Assembly: GCA_020848035.1 (NCBI GenBank)
Contig: JADLAX010000007.1
Coordinates: 1 to 64,000, forward strand
DNA: 64,000 nucleotides
Reading direction: 5' to 3'
Origin: Anaerolineae bacterium
GTDB lineage: Bacteria; Chloroflexota; Anaerolineae; Promineifilales; Promineifilaceae
Positions 16,587 to 42,721 of the stretch are shown here, piece after piece (position 1 is the first letter of the stretch; every line of letters begins with the position of its first letter). The position numbers and the translations under genes are program-made. The notes below the pieces were generated by a model, which was not told the origin of the DNA, did no database searches, and saw only the letters and a program-made list of their open reading frames with translations.

Positions 16587-19500
16587 ATGGAAACGATTGG
16601 TCTAGAGGCATTCATCAATATGGGTGCCTTCCGTGCGGCATTCAAAGAGTACAACTCCTCTGTTGTACAGATGAACACCAACACGGAAACGGCCGCATCT
16701 GGCATCACTGGAAAATTCCAGTCGATGGGCAACTCGGTCCTGGGCATCGCCAAAGGGCTGGGCACGGCGATGGTGGCCGGAGCCACTGCGGCCATGGGAG
16801 CGATCACTGCTTTTGTGGGCAGCGGGGTCAAGCTGGCCACAGACCTTGAAGCGCAGATGGCAGGGGTGCGAGCCGTCCTGGGCATTACCGCTGATGACCT
16901 GGAGCTAATCCGACAGAAAACAATCGACTTGGGTCTAAATCCCAACTTGAAGGTTTCGGCCGTTGAAGCGGCTGGCGCAATTGAAATGCTGGCCAAAAAT
17001 GGCCTGAGCATGCAGGAGATTTTGGACGGCGCGGCCGAATCCACCATCTTGCTGGCCAACGCCACCGGTGCAGAATTTTCCAATGCGGCCAATATCGCGA
17101 CCGACGCGATGGCAATCTTCAACATCGGCGCCGGCGACATGCTGGCGGCGGTTGATGGGATCTCCTCAGTCACCGTCAGCTCCAAATTTGATATAGAAGA
17201 TTACGCCAACGCCCTGGCTCAAGGTGGCGGTGCCGCATCGGTTGCGGGTGTGGAATTCAACGATTTCAATGCGGCCATAGCCGCCATGAGCCCTCTGTTC
17301 AAGGCGGGGTCAGACGCGGGCACTTCTTTCAAAACCTTCCTTCAGCGAACCGTTCCCCAAAGCGCTCAAGCAGCAGAAGCCATAGAAGCACTTGGTCTGG
17401 AGTTCTTCGACGCCAACGGCAACATGCGCAGCATGGCAGATATTTCTGGCCAGTTGAACCAGGCTATGTATGGCACGTCCACTGCCATGACAGAGGTGGG
17501 CGGCCGTACCGCTGAGCAGAATGCAGAGCTGCAGCGCCTGGGCCGAATCTACGATTCGACCCTCCAAACTATCGCAGACTACGAGGCTGGGATCAAAGGG
17601 GCCGGGCTGTCTGAGGCAGCACGCGCGGACAGACTAGAAGATCTCCGCCTACAGCTTGGGAACACAGAAGCAGCCATGCAGCCGCTGTTGTCCATCCAAG
17701 GTGAGATGGTGGCCACAACCCGCCAACTGACCGAGGCGGAGCGGCTCCAATATCTGACTACCATCTTTGGGGCTGACGCCATGCGGGCCGCAGCTGGGTT
17801 GGCCGAATTCACCGAGGAAGAGTTTGCCGCTCTACAGGCGACGATGGGTGACACCAGCGCCCTGGACCAGGCGCGTATCCGGGTTGATACGCTGGCTGGG
17901 GCGATGGATATCTTCGCAGGCATTATTGAAGCGCTGAAGATCCAGGTGGGAGACGCTTTCATTCCGCTCATCCGCCAGGTTGTTGAGAGCCTGTCCAAAT
18001 TTGTAGAGGCCAATCAAGAAAAGATTGTTGGGTTTTTCCAAGGAATTGTCACATTCATCGAGACGCTGGTCGGCTCTCTCCAGTCAGGTTCCGGACCAAT
18101 AGAGGCATTCCTATCGGCACTGTCCGCTGTTGGTGTATCTGACGGCCTGGTGACCCAAATTGGCGATTTTGTCAATCGTGCTCGCGAACTCATTGATGTG
18201 GTGCGCGAGTTTGTTACCAATCACGCCGAGGCGTTTAAGGGGGCGCTGCTGGCGATTGGCGCGGTGCTGGCGGCCGCCGCGATCGCGGCGGCAATTACTG
18301 GTATCGTGGCGGCCATTGGTTCATTTGCTACAGGGATCGGACCCATACTTCTGCTTGTTGGGCTATTAGGGGCCGTGGTTGCGGAAAACTGGGACACGAT
18401 TCAGGCAGCCATTCTCTCTGCCTGGGCAGCGATAAAGCCTACGTTCGATGCATTCATGAGCGTGCTGAACGCGCTATGGGGCGAGATCAAGCCGGGCGTG
18501 AAGATATTGGGCCAGTTTGCCAGTCAGATCGTTGAGGCATTTCGCGGAGGTGGGGTTAAGGCAGCGATCCAAGAATTTGTGAACTTGTGGCCCGCAATCC
18601 AAACAGTAATCACGGCAACAATTACCAAAGTGCTGTCGTTTCTGGGGGCAAAGTTCGGCGTAGACCTGGTTGGTATTTTCAACAATGTTCGCGCAGTGCT
18701 TCAAACTGCCTGGACTGTTATTTCTGGCGTCATCACCTCGGCAATCTCAATCATCCAACCGACTGTGCAAAACCTATTTGCCGGGTTTACGGATGCGTTT
18801 AATTCGTTCGCCCCGTTAGGCGAGTCCTTCAAAAACCTCTGGCAAACCCTCCAGCCAGTTATCACAACCGTGGCGGCGGTCATTGGTGCAGCGCTGCTGG
18901 CCCTGGTGGGCGTTGTGGTGGGTGTGTTCAACGGCATTATTGCCGCTATCAACCCTCTCATCACCACGCTGGGCTTTGTGTTGAACGGCGTGGTTGTGTT
19001 TGTGGACGGGGTCATTGAATTCTTTACCGGCCTGTTCTCCTTTGTGGTGGGTTTGTTCACCGGCAATACGGAGAAAATGAAAGAGGCCTGGGCCACCATG
19101 GGCGCGGGTATCACAAACGTCGTGCTGGGCCTGGTAGAAGCGGTTGTGGGCCTGGTAACGGGGCTGTGGACCACGCTATCAGCATTGGTCAGTGGATTAG
19201 TTGAAGGAGTGATCGGTTTCTTTAGGAACCTGTATGACACGCTGGTTGGCCACAGCATCATTCCAGATTTGGTCAATGCCATTGTTGAGTGGATTACCGG
19301 GCTGAAGGACAAGTTTGTCCAGCTGATCATCACGCTGGTGACCAACGTCGTTAACAAGTTTATCGAGCTGAAAGATGGGGCCATTGAGCGAATCCAGGCG
19401 CTGCGGGATTCGGCCGTTTCTCTGTTTGACGCGCTGAAAACGGCCGTTTCCAACAAGATCGAGCTGCTGAAAATTGCGGCGACGAATAAGTTCAACCTGA

Positions 19501-20105
19501 TCAAAACGGCAGTTGTGGACAAACTGACCGAGCTGAAGAACGATGCGGTGGCCAAGGCGCTGGAGATTAAAGACAGCGTGGTAGCCAAGTTTGAAGAGCT
19601 AAAGACGTCTTTGATGAACAAGGTTGAGGCATTCAAATCAATCGGCTCCAACCTCATCATTGGCATCAAAGACGGCATCATGTCCCAAGTGGCCAGCTTG
19701 ATGACGGCAGTAGAGGGACTTGTCGCCATGCTGCCGCAAGCGGTTAAAGACTTGTTGGGGATTGCCTCGCCCTCGAAGCTTTTCTACTCGTTTGGGGTGA
19801 ACGTCATTCGCGGCTTAATCAACGGCGTGCTCTTCATGCGGTCGGCCGCCACGGCGGCGATGCGGAACGTGGTAGGTTCTCTGCCGGGGGTGGACCTGAA
19901 TGTGAGTGCCAGCAACCTGGCACGGGGCAGTTCAAATGCGGGGGTGGCGGCAGCACGGCCGTCCGTGGTGCAGCTGGATCCGTCGTCGCTGCGCGGACTG
20001 GGTGGCGGTGAGACGAACCACAATTATTACCTGACCAACCATTCTGGGGGTAGCCAGCTGGGCATACGCCAGGCATTCAGATTGATGGAGCTGTCCAGAG
20101 CATGA
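16587..20105 (+). CDS. Tail tape measure protein
   Basis: 1172 residues. The N-terminal ~260 match the TP901-type tape measure core (GVRAVLGITADDLELIRQ, GLSMQEILDGA, MSPLFKAGSDAGTSFKTFL). A long hydrophobic, repetitive, helical middle follows (residues ~540-830). The C-terminal region has amphipathic repeats and ends with a typical IASPSKLFYSFG motif. By the usual rule of about 0.15 nm per residue the tail would be near 175 nm. It follows the chaperone frames. Initiation may depend on melting of the hairpin just upstream. Confidence 0.92.
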   Translation: METIGLEAFINMGAFRAAFKEYNSSVVQMNTNTETAASGITGKFQSMGNSVLGIAKGLGTAMVAGATAAMGAITAFVGSGVKLATDLEAQMAGVRAVLGITADDLELIRQKTIDLGLNPNLKVSAVEAAGAIEMLAKNGLSMQEILDGAAESTILLANATGAEFSNAANIATDAMAIFNIGAGDMLAAVDGISSVTVSSKFDIEDYANALAQGGGAASVAGVEFNDFNAAIAAMSPLFKAGSDAGTSFKTFLQRTVPQSAQAAEAIEALGLEFFDANGNMRSMADISGQLNQAMYGTSTAMTEVGGRTAEQNAELQRLGRIYDSTLQTIADYEAGIKGAGLSEAARADRLEDLRLQLGNTEAAMQPLLSIQGEMVATTRQLTEAERLQYLTTIFGADAMRAAAGLAEFTEEEFAALQATMGDTSALDQARIRVDTLAGAMDIFAGIIEALKIQVGDAFIPLIRQVVESLSKFVEANQEKIVGFFQGIVTFIETLVGSLQSGSGPIEAFLSALSAVGVSDGLVTQIGDFVNRARELIDVVREFVTNHAEAFKGALLAIGAVLAAAAIAAAITGIVAAIGSFATGIGPILLLVGLLGAVVAENWDTIQAAILSAWAAIKPTFDAFMSVLNALWGEIKPGVKILGQFASQIVEAFRGGGVKAAIQEFVNLWPAIQTVITATITKVLSFLGAKFGVDLVGIFNNVRAVLQTAWTVISGVITSAISIIQPTVQNLFAGFTDAFNSFAPLGESFKNLWQTLQPVITTVAAVIGAALLALVGVVVGVFNGIIAAINPLITTLGFVLNGVVVFVDGVIEFFTGLFSFVVGLFTGNTEKMKEAWATMGAGITNVVLGLVEAVVGLVTGLWTTLSALVSGLVEGVIGFFRNLYDTLVGHSIIPDLVNAIVEWITGLKDKFVQLIITLVTNVVNKFIELKDGAIERIQALRDSAVSLFDALKTAVSNKIELLKIAATNKFNLIKTAVVDKLTELKNDAVAKALEIKDSVVAKFEELKTSLMNKVEAFKSIGSNLIIGIKDGIMSQVASLMTAVEGLVAMLPQAVKDLLGIASPSKLFYSFGVNVIRGLINGVLFMRSAATAAMRNVVGSLPGVDLNVSASNLARGSSNAGVAAARPSVVQLDPSSLRGLGGGETNHNYYLTNHSGGSQLGIRQAFRLMELSRA

Positions 20106-36311: not shown

Positions 36312-36574
36312 CGTGTGGCAAGGTTGTTCACCTGACGAAGGAGTCGGCAGAAGGGCATGCAGATCGCCTGGAAGCCGAGACCGGGGTGCGCCCAGAAATC
36401 TATCAATGTACGGAGTGCAATAACACGTGGCACGTGGGCCACACGGTCGCACTCAGAAAAAAACTATCAAAAAAAAGCCGCCGCATTCGGCGCGCACACC
36501 GCAATGGCGGCATGAGAAAAAGGAGCATTCATGAACGAAAGAATAGAAATGGTGCCGATTGGCCCAATCCGTAA
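36308..36574 (+). CDS. Small zinc-finger protein
   Basis: 88 residues. YQCTECNNTWHVGH carries CxxC plus His, preceded by a Cys near the start; a basic tail follows. A paralogue is at 61200. It overlaps the ParB-like gene by 44 bases. Nucleic-acid binding is likely. Confidence 0.6.
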   Translation: MTCGKVVHLTKESAEGHADRLEAETGVRPEIYQCTECNNTWHVGHTVALRKKLSKKSRRIRRAHRNGGMRKRSIHERKNRNGADWPNP

Positions 36575-38558
36575 GAACCGGGCGCAGATGCGCACGACTT
36601 ACGATTTGACCAAGCTGGCCGAGCTAACCCTGCAAATGATCCAGCGCGGCTTCGATGGTGATAAGCCACTGCTGATCCGCAAGCTTGACAAGCCAGAAGG
36701 TAGCACAGCGATGACCTACCAGTATGAGAACATCCGTGGCCACCGCCGCCGGATGGCCATGCTGATGGCCCTGGACTGCAAGGGTGGTGGCGAATGGGAG
36801 ATCGAAGCCCTGCGCACCGTCTGGAAGGATTTGGTAGTGCAGTTCGGTGGAGATGTGAGCGAGGAGGTGGTTTCGGCCGAATACGTGGAAGCCGCAGCCG
36901 AATCACTGGCAGAAGCATACCGCGATGAGCTGGTACCGGCCGTCATCTTCCAGGGTGATGAAAAGCAGGCGACGCTGAGCCTCATCTCCGACAACTTCGG
37001 CGACGAAGACCCAGACCCGCTGGGGATTGCCCACGCTCTGCAGGTAGCGGCGCAGCAGGGAATCAATGTGAATGAGGTGGCCAGCCACATGGGGCAGTCG
37101 CGCTACTTCGTTGAAAACCATCTGGCCCTGGGGCAGGTGGATGCCGATATCGCGCAGCGCATTGTGCGCAAAGAGATGAGCATGTCGGTAGCCCCGCTGC
37201 TCATGGCCCAGGCCGAAGAAGTGCGCGAAGCGCTGACCCAGTTCATTCTCATGAATCCAGCGCATCTGATTACCCTGGCCGGTATCAAGAAGCTGACAAA
37301 GCTCTTCGGCAAAGTTTCCTTTACGCTGCCCCTCAGTTTCCCCAACAGCACCCGGCGCAACGTCGCCCGGGCGTTCTGCAATCTGTGGCATGAGGTTTAC
37401 AGCGCCAATCCCGCGCGCGCCTGGTTAGGCGCAGCGGTGGTGCTGTACAACGGCGACCTCATCTACCCGTGGGATGATCCGGAGTATGCGGGGAAGTGGC
37501 TGCGTGCCCTGGGTGTTGAGTTCTCCGGGCACTGGATGGCCGCCGTTGAGCCGTATCTGCGCGAAGTGGCTTGCGCCACGTGCCCAATTGCCCAATTGCC
37601 CAAAGAGATTCTGAAGGTTGATTTGGTAGCGCCGGGGCTGCCCTGCCGCCAGGGGATTGCTACGGAAAAGTGTATGCACGGGTTGGCCGAAAGCGACCCC
37701 TTCCACGTGCGTGTGCCAATGGCATGGTCCAGCTTGAAGCCGGTTAAGCGGGAAGGCAACGTCTACTTTGTGGACAGCTTTGACGATCTGCAAGCCGCCT
37801 GGACGGCGCAGCAGAAAAAAGAGGCAAAAGAGGCCAAGGCGGAAGCCAAAGAGAAAGCGCCTGAGAAGCCGAAAAAGAAGGATGAAGCGAAAGTAACTAC
37901 GGCCGCTGCTGCGCCCACGCCTGCGCCGGAGATACAAAACAAGCCGGGCGATCCGTCGCCGATTGAGCTGATGCGTGCCCGGATTGGCATGTACATGGCC
38001 CACAGCGAGCAGGACGGCCGTAAGCACTTCATGGCTACGCCGTGCAGCACCTGCCAGCACAAATTGGCGGCCAGCCCCACGTCCGATCCGGCGGTGCCGC
38101 ACTGCGCCTGGGCCAGCCACACCCGCAGCGTGACGTTTAAGGCAATTAGCGGGGCAGGGTTTGAGCAGATGGTGGTTTGTCACCAGTATGCGCCAGACCG
38201 GCCGTGGCGGGAGATTGTGCCGGAATATCCCGCAGCGCCAGCGCTGGAGCGCGGTTGGATGGAACGGCAAATCACGATGTGGGTCAATGATCGCAAGAGC
38301 GGGGATTACAAGCCGTTCCAATGGTTGACCGGCCGCCCGATGTCTTCCGGCGAGCGCTGGGACGATTGGTTCCTGGAGCAGTTCAAAACACAGAAAGGGG
38401 AACTGTCCAGCGGGCAAATATTCACGCTTTTCTTGCTGGTCTCCGGCGAGTGGAAGCAGGCCGAACGATGGAACGGTGACAAGAAGTTTGAACTGCCCGT
38501 CGACGCGACCTTTGCCCAGATGGCCATCGTAACGGCCGAAAAATGGGGGAAAGAATAA
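36531..38558 (+). CDS. PRTRC ParB-related protein
   Basis: 675 residues from the ATG at 36531, after AAAGGAG. The N-terminus is ParB/Srx-like (PIRKNRAQMRTTYDLTKLAEL, NIRGHRRRMAMLMAL). A helical HTH region follows (EVASHMGQSRYFVENHLALG). Two Cys clusters follow: CATCP...C...C near residue 345, and CSTCQHK...C...C after a Lys/Ala/Glu linker. These may bind zinc or an iron-sulphur centre. It is the defining gene of PRTRC cassettes found on plasmids and other mobile elements. Its function in them is not established. Confidence 0.75.
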   Translation: MNERIEMVPIGPIRKNRAQMRTTYDLTKLAELTLQMIQRGFDGDKPLLIRKLDKPEGSTAMTYQYENIRGHRRRMAMLMALDCKGGGEWEIEALRTVWKDLVVQFGGDVSEEVVSAEYVEAAAESLAEAYRDELVPAVIFQGDEKQATLSLISDNFGDEDPDPLGIAHALQVAAQQGINVNEVASHMGQSRYFVENHLALGQVDADIAQRIVRKEMSMSVAPLLMAQAEEVREALTQFILMNPAHLITLAGIKKLTKLFGKVSFTLPLSFPNSTRRNVARAFCNLWHEVYSANPARAWLGAAVVLYNGDLIYPWDDPEYAGKWLRALGVEFSGHWMAAVEPYLREVACATCPIAQLPKEILKVDLVAPGLPCRQGIATEKCMHGLAESDPFHVRVPMAWSSLKPVKREGNVYFVDSFDDLQAAWTAQQKKEAKEAKAEAKEKAPEKPKKKDEAKVTTAAAAPTPAPEIQNKPGDPSPIELMRARIGMYMAHSEQDGRKHFMATPCSTCQHKLAASPTSDPAVPHCAWASHTRSVTFKAISGAGFEQMVVCHQYAPDRPWREIVPEYPAAPALERGWMERQITMWVNDRKSGDYKPFQWLTGRPMSSGERWDDWFLEQFKTQKGELSSGQIFTLFLLVSGEWKQAERWNGDKKFELPVDATFAQMAIVTAEKWGKE

Positions 38559-38875
38559 TGATTGCAATACGGGACGCTTTGGCAGACAAGAAAGTGGTGG
38601 TAACGGCCGTTATTCGGCAGGGTGATGAAAACACCCCCCGCGACAGCCGCGATGTAGTGGTCACAGTGGGAATCCCCGACGAGCGCGTGGTGATTAAGGC
38701 AGGCAAGTTTGGCCAGCTGCACCATCTGATTGATGTGGCCTGGAGCGAGTATGGTGAGATTGTGACGGCAAACCAAACGGCCGTTGCGACTACGGAGCCA
38801 GAAGAGATTGGCTCGGCCGCGCCGGAAGCCACGGTCAGCCAATCCAGCAGTTATTACAGCGACGACGATTTCTAG
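38558..38875 (+). CDS. Possible PRTRC protein E-like
   Basis: 105 residues, coupled by TAATG to the ParB-like gene. Beta strands (KVVVTAVIRQGD, RDVVVTVGIPD) then LHHLIDVAWSEYGEI and a Ser/Asp-rich end. The strand order and place before the ubiquitin-like gene suggest a diverged protein E. Low certainty. Confidence 0.4.
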   Translation: MIAIRDALADKKVVVTAVIRQGDENTPRDSRDVVVTVGIPDERVVIKAGKFGQLHHLIDVAWSEYGEIVTANQTAVATTEPEEIGSAAPEATVSQSSSYYSDDDF

Positions 38876-38885
38876 GAGGAAGATG

Positions 38886-39380
38886 ATGAGCCAAGATGAC
38901 AAAGAGTATGTCACCATTGCCGAGGCAATAGCCGACGCGAAGAAGCCCAGAGTATTTGTTTATGAAGGGCATGAGTATGAAGACCCCGGCCAGCACTTGA
39001 GCAACGAGGATGTGCGAGACATTCTAGCGCGCACCTTCGGCGCGCTGGCGGGCGGCATTATTGAGACGACTGAGCAGGATAGCCGGATTGTGGTGCACCT
39101 GAAGCCGCGGCCTGAGCGCAAGGCAGGAACGGCCGTATCTCGCCAAAAAACGTGCGGGGCCTGTGGTGGACCAGTGTGCGCCATTTGCGGTGGCTGCTTT
39201 GAGGAAGGTGAGTGCGGCTGCTACGAGCAGATGATCGACGACGCAATGTTGGCGGAGTGGGCAAGGGCTAATCGCGATGGGCTGGAAGAGTTCGCCCGGT
39301 TGTGCCGTCAGGACCTGGTCAACGATGTGCTGGTGCTGTTCGGCCGGGTGTTCCAATTGCCCGCAGCCATGATTGAATAG
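38886..39380 (+). CDS. Ubiquitin-like PRTRC protein C with a Cys-rich tail
   Basis: 164 residues from the ATG at 38886 (another ATG at 38883), after AGGAGG. Residues ~22-80 fit PRTRC protein C / Prok_Ub: RVFVYEGHEYEDPGQHLSNE, then DVRDILARTFGALAGG and IVVHLKPRPERKAG, compared with the family pattern F-x-Y-x-G-x2-L-x-D-P ... E-x-V-x2-x-Y-A. Instead of ending there, it continues into a cluster of seven Cys (C90-x2-C-x4-C-x2-C-x2-C-x5-C-x-C112), probably a zinc-binding treble clef. It would be the modifier, or a modifier fused to a zinc module, of the neighbouring E1/E2/JAB set. Confidence 0.65.
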   Translation: MSQDDKEYVTIAEAIADAKKPRVFVYEGHEYEDPGQHLSNEDVRDILARTFGALAGGIIETTEQDSRIVVHLKPRPERKAGTAVSRQKTCGACGGPVCAICGGCFEEGECGCYEQMIDDAMLAEWARANRDGLEEFARLCRQDLVNDVLVLFGRVFQLPAAMIE

Positions 39381-39414
39381 CTGAGAGGGTGGGGGTGTTT
39401 TTTTAGCCCCCACT

Positions 39415-39436: not shown

Positions 39437-39697
39437 ATGCAAGCAATCATAGATTACTTACTAGAAATTCTGAACGACGACGATGAAGTGCCATACATTG
39501 ATGTGGATGACGTTTTCAACTTTCTGAACGACTTGATTGGCAACCAGCTGGATGCAGCACATATTGTAGACAGGGTAGGGCTTTATGAGGTGGAGCTAAA
39601 CAGCGTAGCGTGGGAAGGACGCGCTGCCAGCGAACTGCTAACCAGGCTGCTTATTACGCCAGCTGTACCGCTGAAAGGGTATGTGGTGGGGCTATGA
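39437..39697 (+). CDS. Small acidic protein in the PRTRC cassette
   Basis: 86 residues, helical and acidic (LLEILNDDDEVPYIDVDDVF). Overlaps the next gene (ATGA). Unknown. Confidence 0.5.
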   Translation: MQAIIDYLLEILNDDDEVPYIDVDDVFNFLNDLIGNQLDAAHIVDRVGLYEVELNSVAWEGRAASELLTRLLITPAVPLKGYVVGL

Positions 39698-40590
39698 AAA
39701 CCAAAAAACTTGACCCACGAGACCTGGCCCGCTGTGCCCTCACCAGCCTACGGCTAGCACGAATCCATCAGAATTTCTTCAGCGATGCGCTGCCTGATCT
39801 GAAATGGAAGCCCGTCGATGAAAAAAGCACCGCAAAGGCGGCTTCCAAGATACTTGGACACGTGGGCACTCTGTTTCCTCTTTGGGAAATGTGGGATGAC
39901 GATTACGCAATGGCCGAGGATTTTTCACAGTATATCCCTATCACCGTATTTGGCGTCGACGATGAATATATTTCAGACATGATGGGTAGCCATATATGGC
40001 ATGACCTGGAGGCATATCTATTTGCCTTTGATGGCGGGTTTGGGGGAGGGGAAGAAGAAGAGGCCGGCGAAGAACTCGCTTGCCAGTTTGATATTCGCCA
40101 GCCAGCGCCCATCTGGAAGATTTTCCTCAAGCTGGAAATGATGCTCATCGAAGGTGATGAGCGGCTCCAGCAGTACAGGGTGCAATGGCGCAACATGGCG
40201 CGACGCTTCCGCTATTTGACGGCCAATACGGAGCACCAGTTTCTCGATCGAGACATCGAAACGCAGAGTTACTCTGGTCAGATACCCTGGGAAAAGGAAT
40301 GGATTGATGCCCTGACAGAGCAATGGGCAGAAGCGGAGCCATACCTGGATTCCACATGGGCATTTGTAAATTGGGTGATAGAAAGCCCAGGTAACTTCGA
40401 CCTGGCAATTGCCGTGGTGCGCCTGGTGTGTGACGAAGTGGCTGCTGACGAGCAGATGGCCAATGTCAGCTTGAATGAAGTACACACTGAAGATCACAAA
40501 GACCTCCTGACAATTCAGCAACGTTTGAACGCAATGGAATGGGACGAAAATGACAAACCAGAAAACGAAAAAGAAACCGAAGCTAGTTAG
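39694..40590 (+). CDS. PRTRC-cassette protein of unknown function
   Basis: 298 residues from the ATG at 39694. Helical, acidic, with a Gly/Glu-rich stretch (GGFGGGEEEEAGEE) near the middle and many Trp. By position it could take the place of PRTRC protein F, but I see no diagnostic motif. It overlaps the E2-like gene by 41 bases. Confidence 0.5.
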   Translation: MKTKKLDPRDLARCALTSLRLARIHQNFFSDALPDLKWKPVDEKSTAKAASKILGHVGTLFPLWEMWDDDYAMAEDFSQYIPITVFGVDDEYISDMMGSHIWHDLEAYLFAFDGGFGGGEEEEAGEELACQFDIRQPAPIWKIFLKLEMMLIEGDERLQQYRVQWRNMARRFRYLTANTEHQFLDRDIETQSYSGQIPWEKEWIDALTEQWAEAEPYLDSTWAFVNWVIESPGNFDLAIAVVRLVCDEVAADEQMANVSLNEVHTEDHKDLLTIQQRLNAMEWDENDKPENEKETEAS

Positions 40591-41209
40591 AGGAAAATGG
40601 GCGGCGCGCATCTCTCTCTACCGGGATCACGCATATGTGGAGATGGATCACCCGGAAGGCTTGCTCGAAAAGCAGGTCGCGCTTGATAGCCTGGGTCCGG
40701 TGTTCGCCAATGTCCCCGTGGGGACGGGGCTGCTGCCGCGCAACATTCTGTTTTATGAAAAGCAGAACGGGGAACAGCGCATCGGCATCTACATTGAACC
40801 TGATCGATACACCTTCCGCACGCCAGATCGGGAATACAAGCTGCCTATGCCGGGCTTTGTGTTTGTGGGCCAGGCGCAGCGTTACAGCCTATATGCCGTG
40901 GCTGAGACGGATTGGCCGGGGCAGCGCACCAGGCTGTACTGGCCGCCCATGACCAACATTCAGGATGGTGGGTCTATGTGCACCGGAACGGTGAAGGTGC
41001 CCAGCTGCGCACCGGACACCATTTGGGACGCCTGGGCTGCGCTGATGGGCGCGTATTTCACGCCTCATGCCATTGAGCATCGCAGCAAAAGCCACAAATC
41101 AGTCATTGAGTTCTGGGAGTTCCTGGAAGCGGTGGACGCTTTTCCCTATGACGAGCTAGTGCCGATGGACAAGCCGCGCACGCTGGAAGAGCTGCTCAGA
41201 GGAGTCTAA
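40550..41209 (+). CDS. E2-like PRTRC protein B
   Basis: 219 residues. LLPRNILFYEK, GIYIEPDRYTFR and the GGSMCTGTVKVP motif with Cys144 match PRTRC protein B / prokaryotic E2 family D, in which this Cys is the candidate thioester site. FTPHAIEH is the conserved later motif. It lies next to E1-like, JAB and ubiquitin-like genes. The conjugating activity is a prediction of the family, not shown here. Confidence 0.7.
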   Translation: MTNQKTKKKPKLVRGKWAARISLYRDHAYVEMDHPEGLLEKQVALDSLGPVFANVPVGTGLLPRNILFYEKQNGEQRIGIYIEPDRYTFRTPDREYKLPMPGFVFVGQAQRYSLYAVAETDWPGQRTRLYWPPMTNIQDGGSMCTGTVKVPSCAPDTIWDAWAALMGAYFTPHAIEHRSKSHKSVIEFWEFLEAVDAFPYDELVPMDKPRTLEELLRGV

Positions 41210-41211
41210 CA

Positions 41212-41814
41212 ATGCTCAGTATTCACAACTTACTCCAACACTACATCTACGATGGCACCCTGCCAGAACCAAACCCGCCAGGGTATCAGTACATCATGGC
41301 GGGCAATGGCATCTTCATCCAGGCAGATAGCCCACTGCGACGCGTGGTTGTGCAAATCGCCCGAAAGCAAATTAAAGGGCTGCCAGCGCTTCAGCAGCAG
41401 ATCAGGTTGAAGCACCCCCGGCTAAACGGCCGTACGCTGCCGGTGATCATCGAACACGCCAGACAGCGCCTGGACATCGAGGTGGTTTACCACGTGACAG
41501 CTGACATGCGGATTCGCGCCATCGCCACGGGCACCAAGGCGTCTGTTGAGTTTGAGAATGTGCCTGATGAAGGGGTTATCCTGGAGGCTCATTCGCATAA
41601 CACAATGCCTGCAGGATTTTCCTCAGTAGACAACAAGTATGAACAGCGGTTTCGATTCTATATGGTGGTGGGCAATCTGCACGACCGTCCGCAGGTGGCC
41701 TTCCGGCTGGGGGTGTATGGGTATCACATCCCGCTACCGCTATCGGTTTTGTTTGACTTTAGCAACGTAAACATTGAATGGGACGAGGTGGGTCATGCTC
41801 AAGATAGATATTGA
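41212..41814 (+). CDS. JAB/JAMM PRTRC protein A
   Basis: 200 residues from the ATG at 41212. Glu125, then H127-S-H129, seven residues, S137-x2-D140: the full JAMM metalloprotease motif (HxH-x7-S-x2-D). JAB proteases of this class remove or mature ubiquitin-like tags. It overlaps the E1-like gene by 20 bases. Confidence 0.8.
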   Translation: MLSIHNLLQHYIYDGTLPEPNPPGYQYIMAGNGIFIQADSPLRRVVVQIARKQIKGLPALQQQIRLKHPRLNGRTLPVIIEHARQRLDIEVVYHVTADMRIRAIATGTKASVEFENVPDEGVILEAHSHNTMPAGFSSVDNKYEQRFRFYMVVGNLHDRPQVAFRLGVYGYHIPLPLSVLFDFSNVNIEWDEVGHAQDRY

Positions 41815-42721
41815 AAAACGATATCGGGTGATGGTTCCCGATTTTCAATTTGTGCAGCTTGTGGTTGCCGGGGTGGGGGGAACTGGCTCAGCCGTAGCCA
41901 TCGATCTGGCACGCCTGGCATATCACTGCCAGGAGAATGGACTACCGGTGATGATGCAGCTGGTTGACGGCGACAAGGTGGAACCAAAAAATGTCGGACG
42001 CCAGCAGTTCTCGATGTACGAGGTCGGTGAAAACAAGGCGACGTCCATGGCGCGGCGGCTGAACCTCTGGCTTGGGCTGGATATAACGGGCACCCCCAAG
42101 ATGCTAACAGAAAAAACGAAACTCATCTTCAACGACGGCCGTATGAAGCCGCTGCGAATCATTGTGGGTGCAGTAGACAACCATAAGGCGCGCCGGGCCA
42201 TTGCCAAACATGCGCAGAAATCTGGCGCATGGTGGGTGGATGCGGGCAACGGCGAATTCAAGGGCCAGGTTCTACTCGGCAATTATCCGCAGGGTGGGAT
42301 TGAGGTAGCCGAGGACCTGGCCCTGATGAACGGGTTACCCGCTCCAGACAAACAGATGCCGGAGCTGCTTGAAGAAGAGGACAAACCAACGCTGGAGTTC
42401 GAGGATTGTGCCTTACGCATCTTACGCGATGAGCAGAGCATCAACATCAATCGGTTGATGGCCACGTATGCGGCGCAGGTGGTTTACGACCTGATCATCA
42501 AGCGGGAGTTGGATTACATGGCGATTCATACCAGCTTCCGGCCGCCCAGCACAACGGCCGTGCCTGTCACCCGCCGCACGCTTGAGCGGTATGGCGAAGT
42601 GAAGGAAGTGCCCGCAAAGTACGACCCCAAGGACATGGACCCAGAGGAGTTTGACGACGAAGAGGATTTTGAACAGTGGTTGCTGGACATGGAAATGGAA
42701 GGCGAGGAGGAGCTGCCGTAA
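41795..42721 (+). CDS. E1/ThiF-like PRTRC protein
   Basis: 308 residues from the ATG at 41795, with GAGGTGGG upstream. The Rossmann motif AGVGGTGSA is at residues ~25-33. LVDGDKVEPKNVGRQQF has the adenylating Asp and the N-x2-RQ motif of ThiF/E1 enzymes. A Cys in FEDCALRIL is a candidate active site. It should adenylate the C-terminus of a ubiquitin-like partner. The end is very acidic. TAATG couples the next gene. Confidence 0.8.
   Translation: MLKIDIEKRYRVMVPDFQFVQLVVAGVGGTGSAVAIDLARLAYHCQENGLPVMMQLVDGDKVEPKNVGRQQFSMYEVGENKATSMARRLNLWLGLDITGTPKMLTEKTKLIFNDGRMKPLRIIVGAVDNHKARRAIAKHAQKSGAWWVDAGNGEFKGQVLLGNYPQGGIEVAEDLALMNGLPAPDKQMPELLEEEDKPTLEFEDCALRILRDEQSININRLMATYAAQVVYDLIIKRELDYMAIHTSFRPPSTTAVPVTRRTLERYGEVKEVPAKYDPKDMDPEEFDDEEDFEQWLLDMEMEGEEELP

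Follow-up and report, generated by a model that had tools for sequence, protein, structure and literature searches.

A ubiquitin-like protein of a PRTRC operon with an appended seven-cysteine tail, a candidate modifier precursor

The reading frame at 38886-39380 of the window, the whole 64,000-nucleotide stretch that was analysed, encodes protein C, the ubiquitin-like (UBL) member of a PRTRC operon, a family assignment settled by synteny. The operon is of a known type, and the Cys-rich tail that follows the UBL domain is a one-off variant, found only here. As the likeliest mechanism we propose that protein C is a pro-UBL precursor, which would be trimmed at a Lys-Ala-Gly junction by the JAMM peptidase of the operon and then activated by its E1- and E2-like proteins; we put the probability of this reading at about 0.5.

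The PRTRC operon and its ubiquitin-like protein

The operon is complete and in canonical order (ParB, E-like, C, extra ORF, F-like, B/E2, A/JAMM, ThiF/E1). The annotated plasmids EbN1 plasmid 1 and pNK84 likewise show the order ParB-E-C-F-B-A-ThiF. The features of the locus are:

36531..38558, + strand: ParB-family protein in the PRTRC ParB position (HTH_ParB 4.9e-7, TIGR03734 1.8e-5); homologues in the PRTRC loci of relatives (E 1e-93 to 1e-127)
38558..38875, + strand: PRTRC protein E-like, 105-110 aa, between ParB and C; same-position homologues, E to 3e-11
38886..39380, + strand: PRTRC protein C with Cys-rich tail, CDS of 164 aa (codon bias, Shine-Dalgarno)
38943..39128, + strand: predicted beta-grasp (ubiquitin-like) domain, residues 20-81 (PF14454/TIGR03738, AlphaFold, structural matches)
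39120..39128, + strand: junction K79-A80-G81, candidate processing point (homologues K-G in the alignment; plasmid homologues end [KR]G)
39153..39221, + strand: seven-Cys module C-x2-C-G-x3-C-x2-C-G-x-C-x5-C-x-C, predicted to bind metal; similar modules elsewhere
39222..39377, + strand: helix-prone C-terminal region, residues 113-164 (low-confidence AlphaFold helices; no detectable homologue)
39437..39697, + strand: 86-aa ORF in the place of a separate tail gene of the relative L042; homology not demonstrated
39697..40590, + strand: PRTRC protein F-like (position; phmmer 3e-6 to the same-position gene)
40550..41209, + strand: PRTRC protein B, E2-like (Prok-E2_D 5e-22), G-x-[MI]-C-x-G retained
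41212..41814, + strand: PRTRC protein A, JAB/JAMM peptidase (PRTRC_A 8e-14), HSH-x7-S-x2-D motif retained
41774..42721, + strand: PRTRC ThiF, E1-like (TIGR03736 147 bits, above cut-off), nucleotide-binding motif and conserved Cys retained

Since the E2 Cys, the ThiF Cys and nucleotide motif, and the JAMM motif are all intact, the pathway looks functional as judged from its conserved residues. For the type 6d Ub-like operons a ubiquitin-like pathway has been predicted, in which the C-terminal Gly of the small beta-grasp protein is strongly conserved (Iyer et al. 2006; PMC1779556). We found no experimental work on any PRTRC system or operon in the literature.

The protein C frame runs from 38886 to 39377, with the stop ending at 39380 and an alternative ATG at 38883, and is preceded by a perfect Shine-Dalgarno sequence (AGGAGG, 38874-38879). 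Residues 22-63 match Prok_Ub PF14454 at 21.1 bits (E 2.8e-4; curated cut-off 25 bits) and TIGR03738 PRTRC_C at 19.3 bits (E 9e-4; curated cut-off 45.95 bits), both significant yet short of the cut-offs; homologues at this position elsewhere in the host genome do little better against the family profiles. A tblastn search of all plasmids with protein C returned 12 places at individually weak E values (0.2-7); in 11 of them the annotation reads PRTRC protein C, and the record of the remaining one has none. Just after the stop codon lies a perfect 7-bp inverted repeat, GTGGGGG/CCCCCAC (39389-39395 / 39407-39413), with a T-rich loop, which may serve as an attenuator or as a site of RNA processing between protein C and the next ORF.

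AlphaFold, run on a 19-sequence alignment, predicted a beta-beta-alpha-beta-beta arrangement in residues 20-79 at a pLDDT of about 95. VIA-align of this model lists the beta-grasp folds of ubiquitin, SUMO1, the Parkin Ubl, MoaD and protein G/L at Z 3.8-4.9, values that are modest even for so small a domain. In the row for ubiquitin (2mws, Z 3.8), model residues 20-79 are set against ubiquitin 1-76, placing K79, A80 and G81 at the ubiquitin C-terminus. Foldseek of the model against the PDB found nothing at E 0.001 or better; it is topology, VIA-align and profiles that carry the beta-grasp assignment. The preliminary description had assigned the protein to the PRTRC protein C / Prok_Ub pattern, which is borne out by the two profile matches, AlphaFold and VIA-align. 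It had also named a predicted structure lacking a beta-grasp as the refuting outcome, and this did not occur.

The cysteine-rich tail and the junction

Past Lys79 the protein continues with an 8-residue linker, the Cys block and then about 50 helix-prone residues. The block comprises residues 90-112 (C90-x2-C93-x4-C98-x2-C101-x2-C104-x5-C110-x-C112), exactly the spacing described earlier. Seven of the eight Cys of protein C thus fall within 23 residues, a clustering reached in 1.6e-4 of shuffles. The block belongs to the coding frame: measured against the neighbouring genes, codon bias across the tail is positive in the protein C frame, whereas both other forward frames give negative values. 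A frameshifted canonical tail was ruled out, as stops occur in each of those two frames and nothing tail-like is encoded there.

The seven-Cys module is probably a small metal-binding knuckle. The tail was modelled at a pLDDT of about 50-60, also when folded alone from its single sequence, and AlphaFold therefore supports no claim of a zinc fold or of its absence. A Pfam scan of the tail returned no match even at E 10. Close relatives of the UBL-Cys fusion were absent from host-family genomes, from 400 genomes of the phylum (chance-level Cys matches only) and from the genome contigs, viral contigs and phages searched, and the plasmid search matched only the UBL part. Homology of the tail, or of the ORF at 39437, to the helical tails of relatives was not detectable above shuffles. 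The best sequence match of the Cys block among solved structures was the PRT6 UBR box, at a chance-level phmmer E of 0.33. A UBR box (zf-UBR), defined by C-x2-C-x5-C-x2-C-x2-C plus a conserved H-x2-H, was ruled out, as the block has no His and x4 in place of x5, and PF02207 has no match at the protein C locus.

Pattern scans recovered the same Cys spacing in four Peribacteria-type genomes, within small acidic ORFs (CELCGEPICELCGGCQCEENACTC), in a set of homologous actinobacterial proteins of 408 aa, where it lies at the ends, and in a few proteins of phages; a downstream C-x-C is present in several of these. None of these matches is joined to a UBL domain, and several others were set aside as low-complexity Cys-rich frames without meaning. 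In the Peribacteraceae mini-proteins and some phage proteins (L100, L103, L107, L115, L074, L149) the module reads C-x2-C-G-x-P-x-C-x2-C-G-G-C..C-x-C; the likeness to protein C is one of Cys spacing and, often, of the downstream C-x-C. Unlike the UBL-joined module of protein C, these modules either form acidic mini-proteins of their own or sit within unrelated proteins. The tiny conserved acidic ORFs among them (L100, L103, L107, L115) are built around CELCGEPICELCGGC-x-C; the one scanned, in L103, has no Pfam match, and together they are possibly an unrecognised family of metal-binding mini-proteins.

Lys79 is invariant in the alignment of protein C homologues. In the homologues of the host family and phylum, all of which have Lys at this position, Gly nearly always comes next, followed by a stop, a short tail or a helical tail of 70-85 residues. 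Three of them (L042, L050, L077) stop within two residues of K-G, and L042 encodes a tail-like domain as a separate gene. Most host-phylum homologues have tails past K-G; these vary in sequence and none is Cys-rich. The helical ones lack Cys clusters and often end in PxVPLGF. Among the 13 plasmid PRTRC C proteins that we read directly, [K/R]G is the exact end of 8, and the other 5 go on into unrelated tails, about 6 to 75 aa long and likewise not Cys-rich. This variability after a conserved Gly suggests, at the level of sequence comparison, a precursor that is cut before use.

The earlier description held that the tail replaces the usual UBL C-terminal end; instead, the last beta strand and Lys79 are present and the Cys block is appended. 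Its view that such a tail is unusual holds for the Cys-rich character and fails for tails as such, which are common in PRTRC C. The proposed check for a junction Gly gave a divided answer, as Gly is present in nearly all homologues and the K-A-G of the present protein is slightly off-pattern, with Ala80 in the terminal-Gly column and Gly81 one residue later. In L086 and L087 the junction Gly is likewise changed to Ala (GTKA, not GTKG), which suggests that processing at a Gly does not extend to every tailed form. The L086 operon (its wider region is L124) retains the E1, E2 and JAMM genes despite this change, and therefore Gly cleavage cannot be universal in tailed forms.

Tailed PRTRC C proteins lie within C-B-A-ThiF operons in L123, L124, L086 and L087. 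In another homologue (L047:4936-5211, +) the junction motif is repeated within the tail (TTKGRTTKGRTTKGRTTRG), resembling a tandem duplication of the K-G point. Three more PRTRC loci lie in the same metagenome-assembled genome as the present one (G000:C72, C101 and C102), with helical, Cys-poor protein C tails; four PRTRC systems therefore coexist in one bin.

A precursor mechanism and its rivals

The precursor model is drawn from a K-G that stays fixed while the sequence after it is either absent or an unrelated tail, from the JAMM gene of the operon and from archaeal precedent. In Caldiarchaeum, a JAMM protease linked to the operon takes off a 9-residue tail of pro-ubiquitin, which E1 cannot activate while the tail is uncut (PMC5654768). 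JAB cleavage of fused UBLs has also been proposed for phage TAPI and for ThiS/MoaD fusions (Iyer et al. 2006; PMC1779556). An intact JAMM protein adjoining protein C makes cleavage at the junction plausible here. The model is weakened by the displaced Gly (K-A-G), by the loss of Gly in L086 and L087 and by UBL scores below the curated cut-offs.

Sequence or prediction gives the family, the fold, the operon, the conserved enzyme residues, the Cys block and the variable tails of homologues; cleavage, metal binding, conjugation and a role for the released tail are what we infer, as follows. Protein C would be made as a precursor, with residues 1-81 as the modifier and residues 82-164 as a C-terminal extension, in which a small metal-binding knuckle with seven Cys precedes a helical end. 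Protein A (41212-41814) would cut at K-A-G and expose a C-terminal Gly, which the ThiF-type E1 would adenylate; the modifier would then be handed on, by way of the E1 Cys, to protein B, the E2-like member, so as to be joined to a target. While in place, the extension would keep activation from happening too early, and once released it may act in trans.

The main rival to the precursor model is a stable fusion that is never cut, an adaptor rather than a conjugated modifier, whose UBL would dock E1/E2 non-covalently while the Cys-rich and helical tail binds targets or DNA. We regard this as possible, and hold it only tentatively. It would account for the displaced Gly and for the Ala of two other tailed homologues, at least one of which has E1, E2 and JAMM genes adjoining, and the conserved PxVPLGF-like motif ending the helical tails of several homologues suggests a selected function. 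Against it, the 8 of 13 plasmid homologues that are tailless and end in [K/R]G indicate that nothing beyond a UBL with a C-terminal Gly is required for the core task, the tail is a separate protein in L042, and tail sequences differ widely. It seems rather unlikely that the UBL is used with its tail kept, as a modifier or adaptor with its own metal-binding, target-reading module; if this were true, a zinc finger joined to a modifier would aim the PRTRC E1/E2 machinery at particular proteins.

That the tail is neutral, a read-through or insertion that does no harm because it is cut away, its Cys block being a mobile metal-binding mini-domain picked up by chance, also appears doubtful. The lack of any relative of the tail in the sets searched agrees with this, as do the short, basic or low-complexity tails elsewhere (L131, L047), but the in-frame coding bias is kept across the tail, and there is a close likeness between the Cys block and modules conserved elsewhere. 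We consider very improbable the suggestion of the preliminary description that the tail is an E3-like RING or treble clef, which would place modifier and ligase on one polypeptide. Zinc-finger proteins of other bacterial Ub-like operons have been proposed as E3-like adaptors (PMC1779556), and the tail has two CxxCG knuckles. A treble clef combines a zinc knuckle, a beta hairpin and a helix donating the second ligand pair; here the knuckles are modelled at a pLDDT of about 50, a confidence that speaks neither for nor against such a fold. A RING has eight Cys/His in a C-x2-C-x9-39-C-x1-3-H-x2-3-C-x2-C-x4-48-C-x2-C cross-brace, whereas the block has seven Cys and no His, its C-x2-C-x4-C-x2-C is too short, with x4 between the first two knuckles, and no Pfam RING matches at E 10. 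With ligand number and spacing wrong and no Pfam match, the E3 reading is not supported.

The 101-kb element and comparison with known systems

The contig carrying the operon (G000:C7; L128/L129) is 101,576 bp long and has identical 127-bp ends, as expected of a circular assembly. Besides genes for a terminase large subunit, a minor tail protein, a Gp37-like protein, ParA/ParB, a helicase and a DarB-like protein, it carries:

16587-20102: tail tape measure
48262: DnaA-N replication protein
53069: polymerase beta clamp
L128:9906-12759, - strand: SMODS nucleotidyltransferase and SAVED sensor/effector, a CBASS-like pair

No capsid or portal gene was identified on the element, which is likely a circular phage-plasmid; its host assignment, made by binning the contig with a metagenome-assembled genome, is not certain. 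A phage-like genome thus holds a full E1/E2/JAMM/UBL set plus CBASS-like genes. Bacillus phage vB_BauM_KLEB27-3 (217 kb; L130) has PRTRC_A and ThiF genes next to a possible E2-like protein, and PRTRC parts in phages are therefore not unique to the present element.

PRTRC operons are widespread on large plasmids, and 210 plasmid records matched PRTRC protein C. Variable tails after a near-invariant K-G, set against an exact [K/R]-G stop, give the simple prediction that protein A matures protein C, and the Cys-rich form offers a tail that is easily followed by metal content or size shift. The general pro-UBL pattern may be more useful than the single Cys-tail fusion.

Eukaryotic ubiquitin-ribosomal protein fusions (Ub-S27a/L40) also consist of a UBL followed by a zinc-binding C-terminal extension; their tails are ribosomal proteins, to which the Pfam scan of the protein C tail found no similarity. 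With PRTRC C of the type 6d operons (PMC1779556) the present system shares operon order, the beta-grasp, the invariant Lys before the terminal Gly position and the JAMM, E1 and E2 partners. It departs from the typical form in a protein C that scores below the curated cut-offs and is extended by 83 residues, among them a seven-Cys block, in a junction that reads K-A-G rather than K-G and in the extra 86-aa ORF before F. The pro-ubiquitin of Caldiarchaeum subterraneum, found with an Rpn11/JAMM (PMC5654768), has its 9-residue extension after Gly-Gly and a small RING protein in its operon, whereas here the extension is of 83 residues, Cys-rich and behind a single Gly, in an operon with no RING; in both, a UBL is extended past its Gly and is encoded in one operon with a JAMM, an E1 and an E2.
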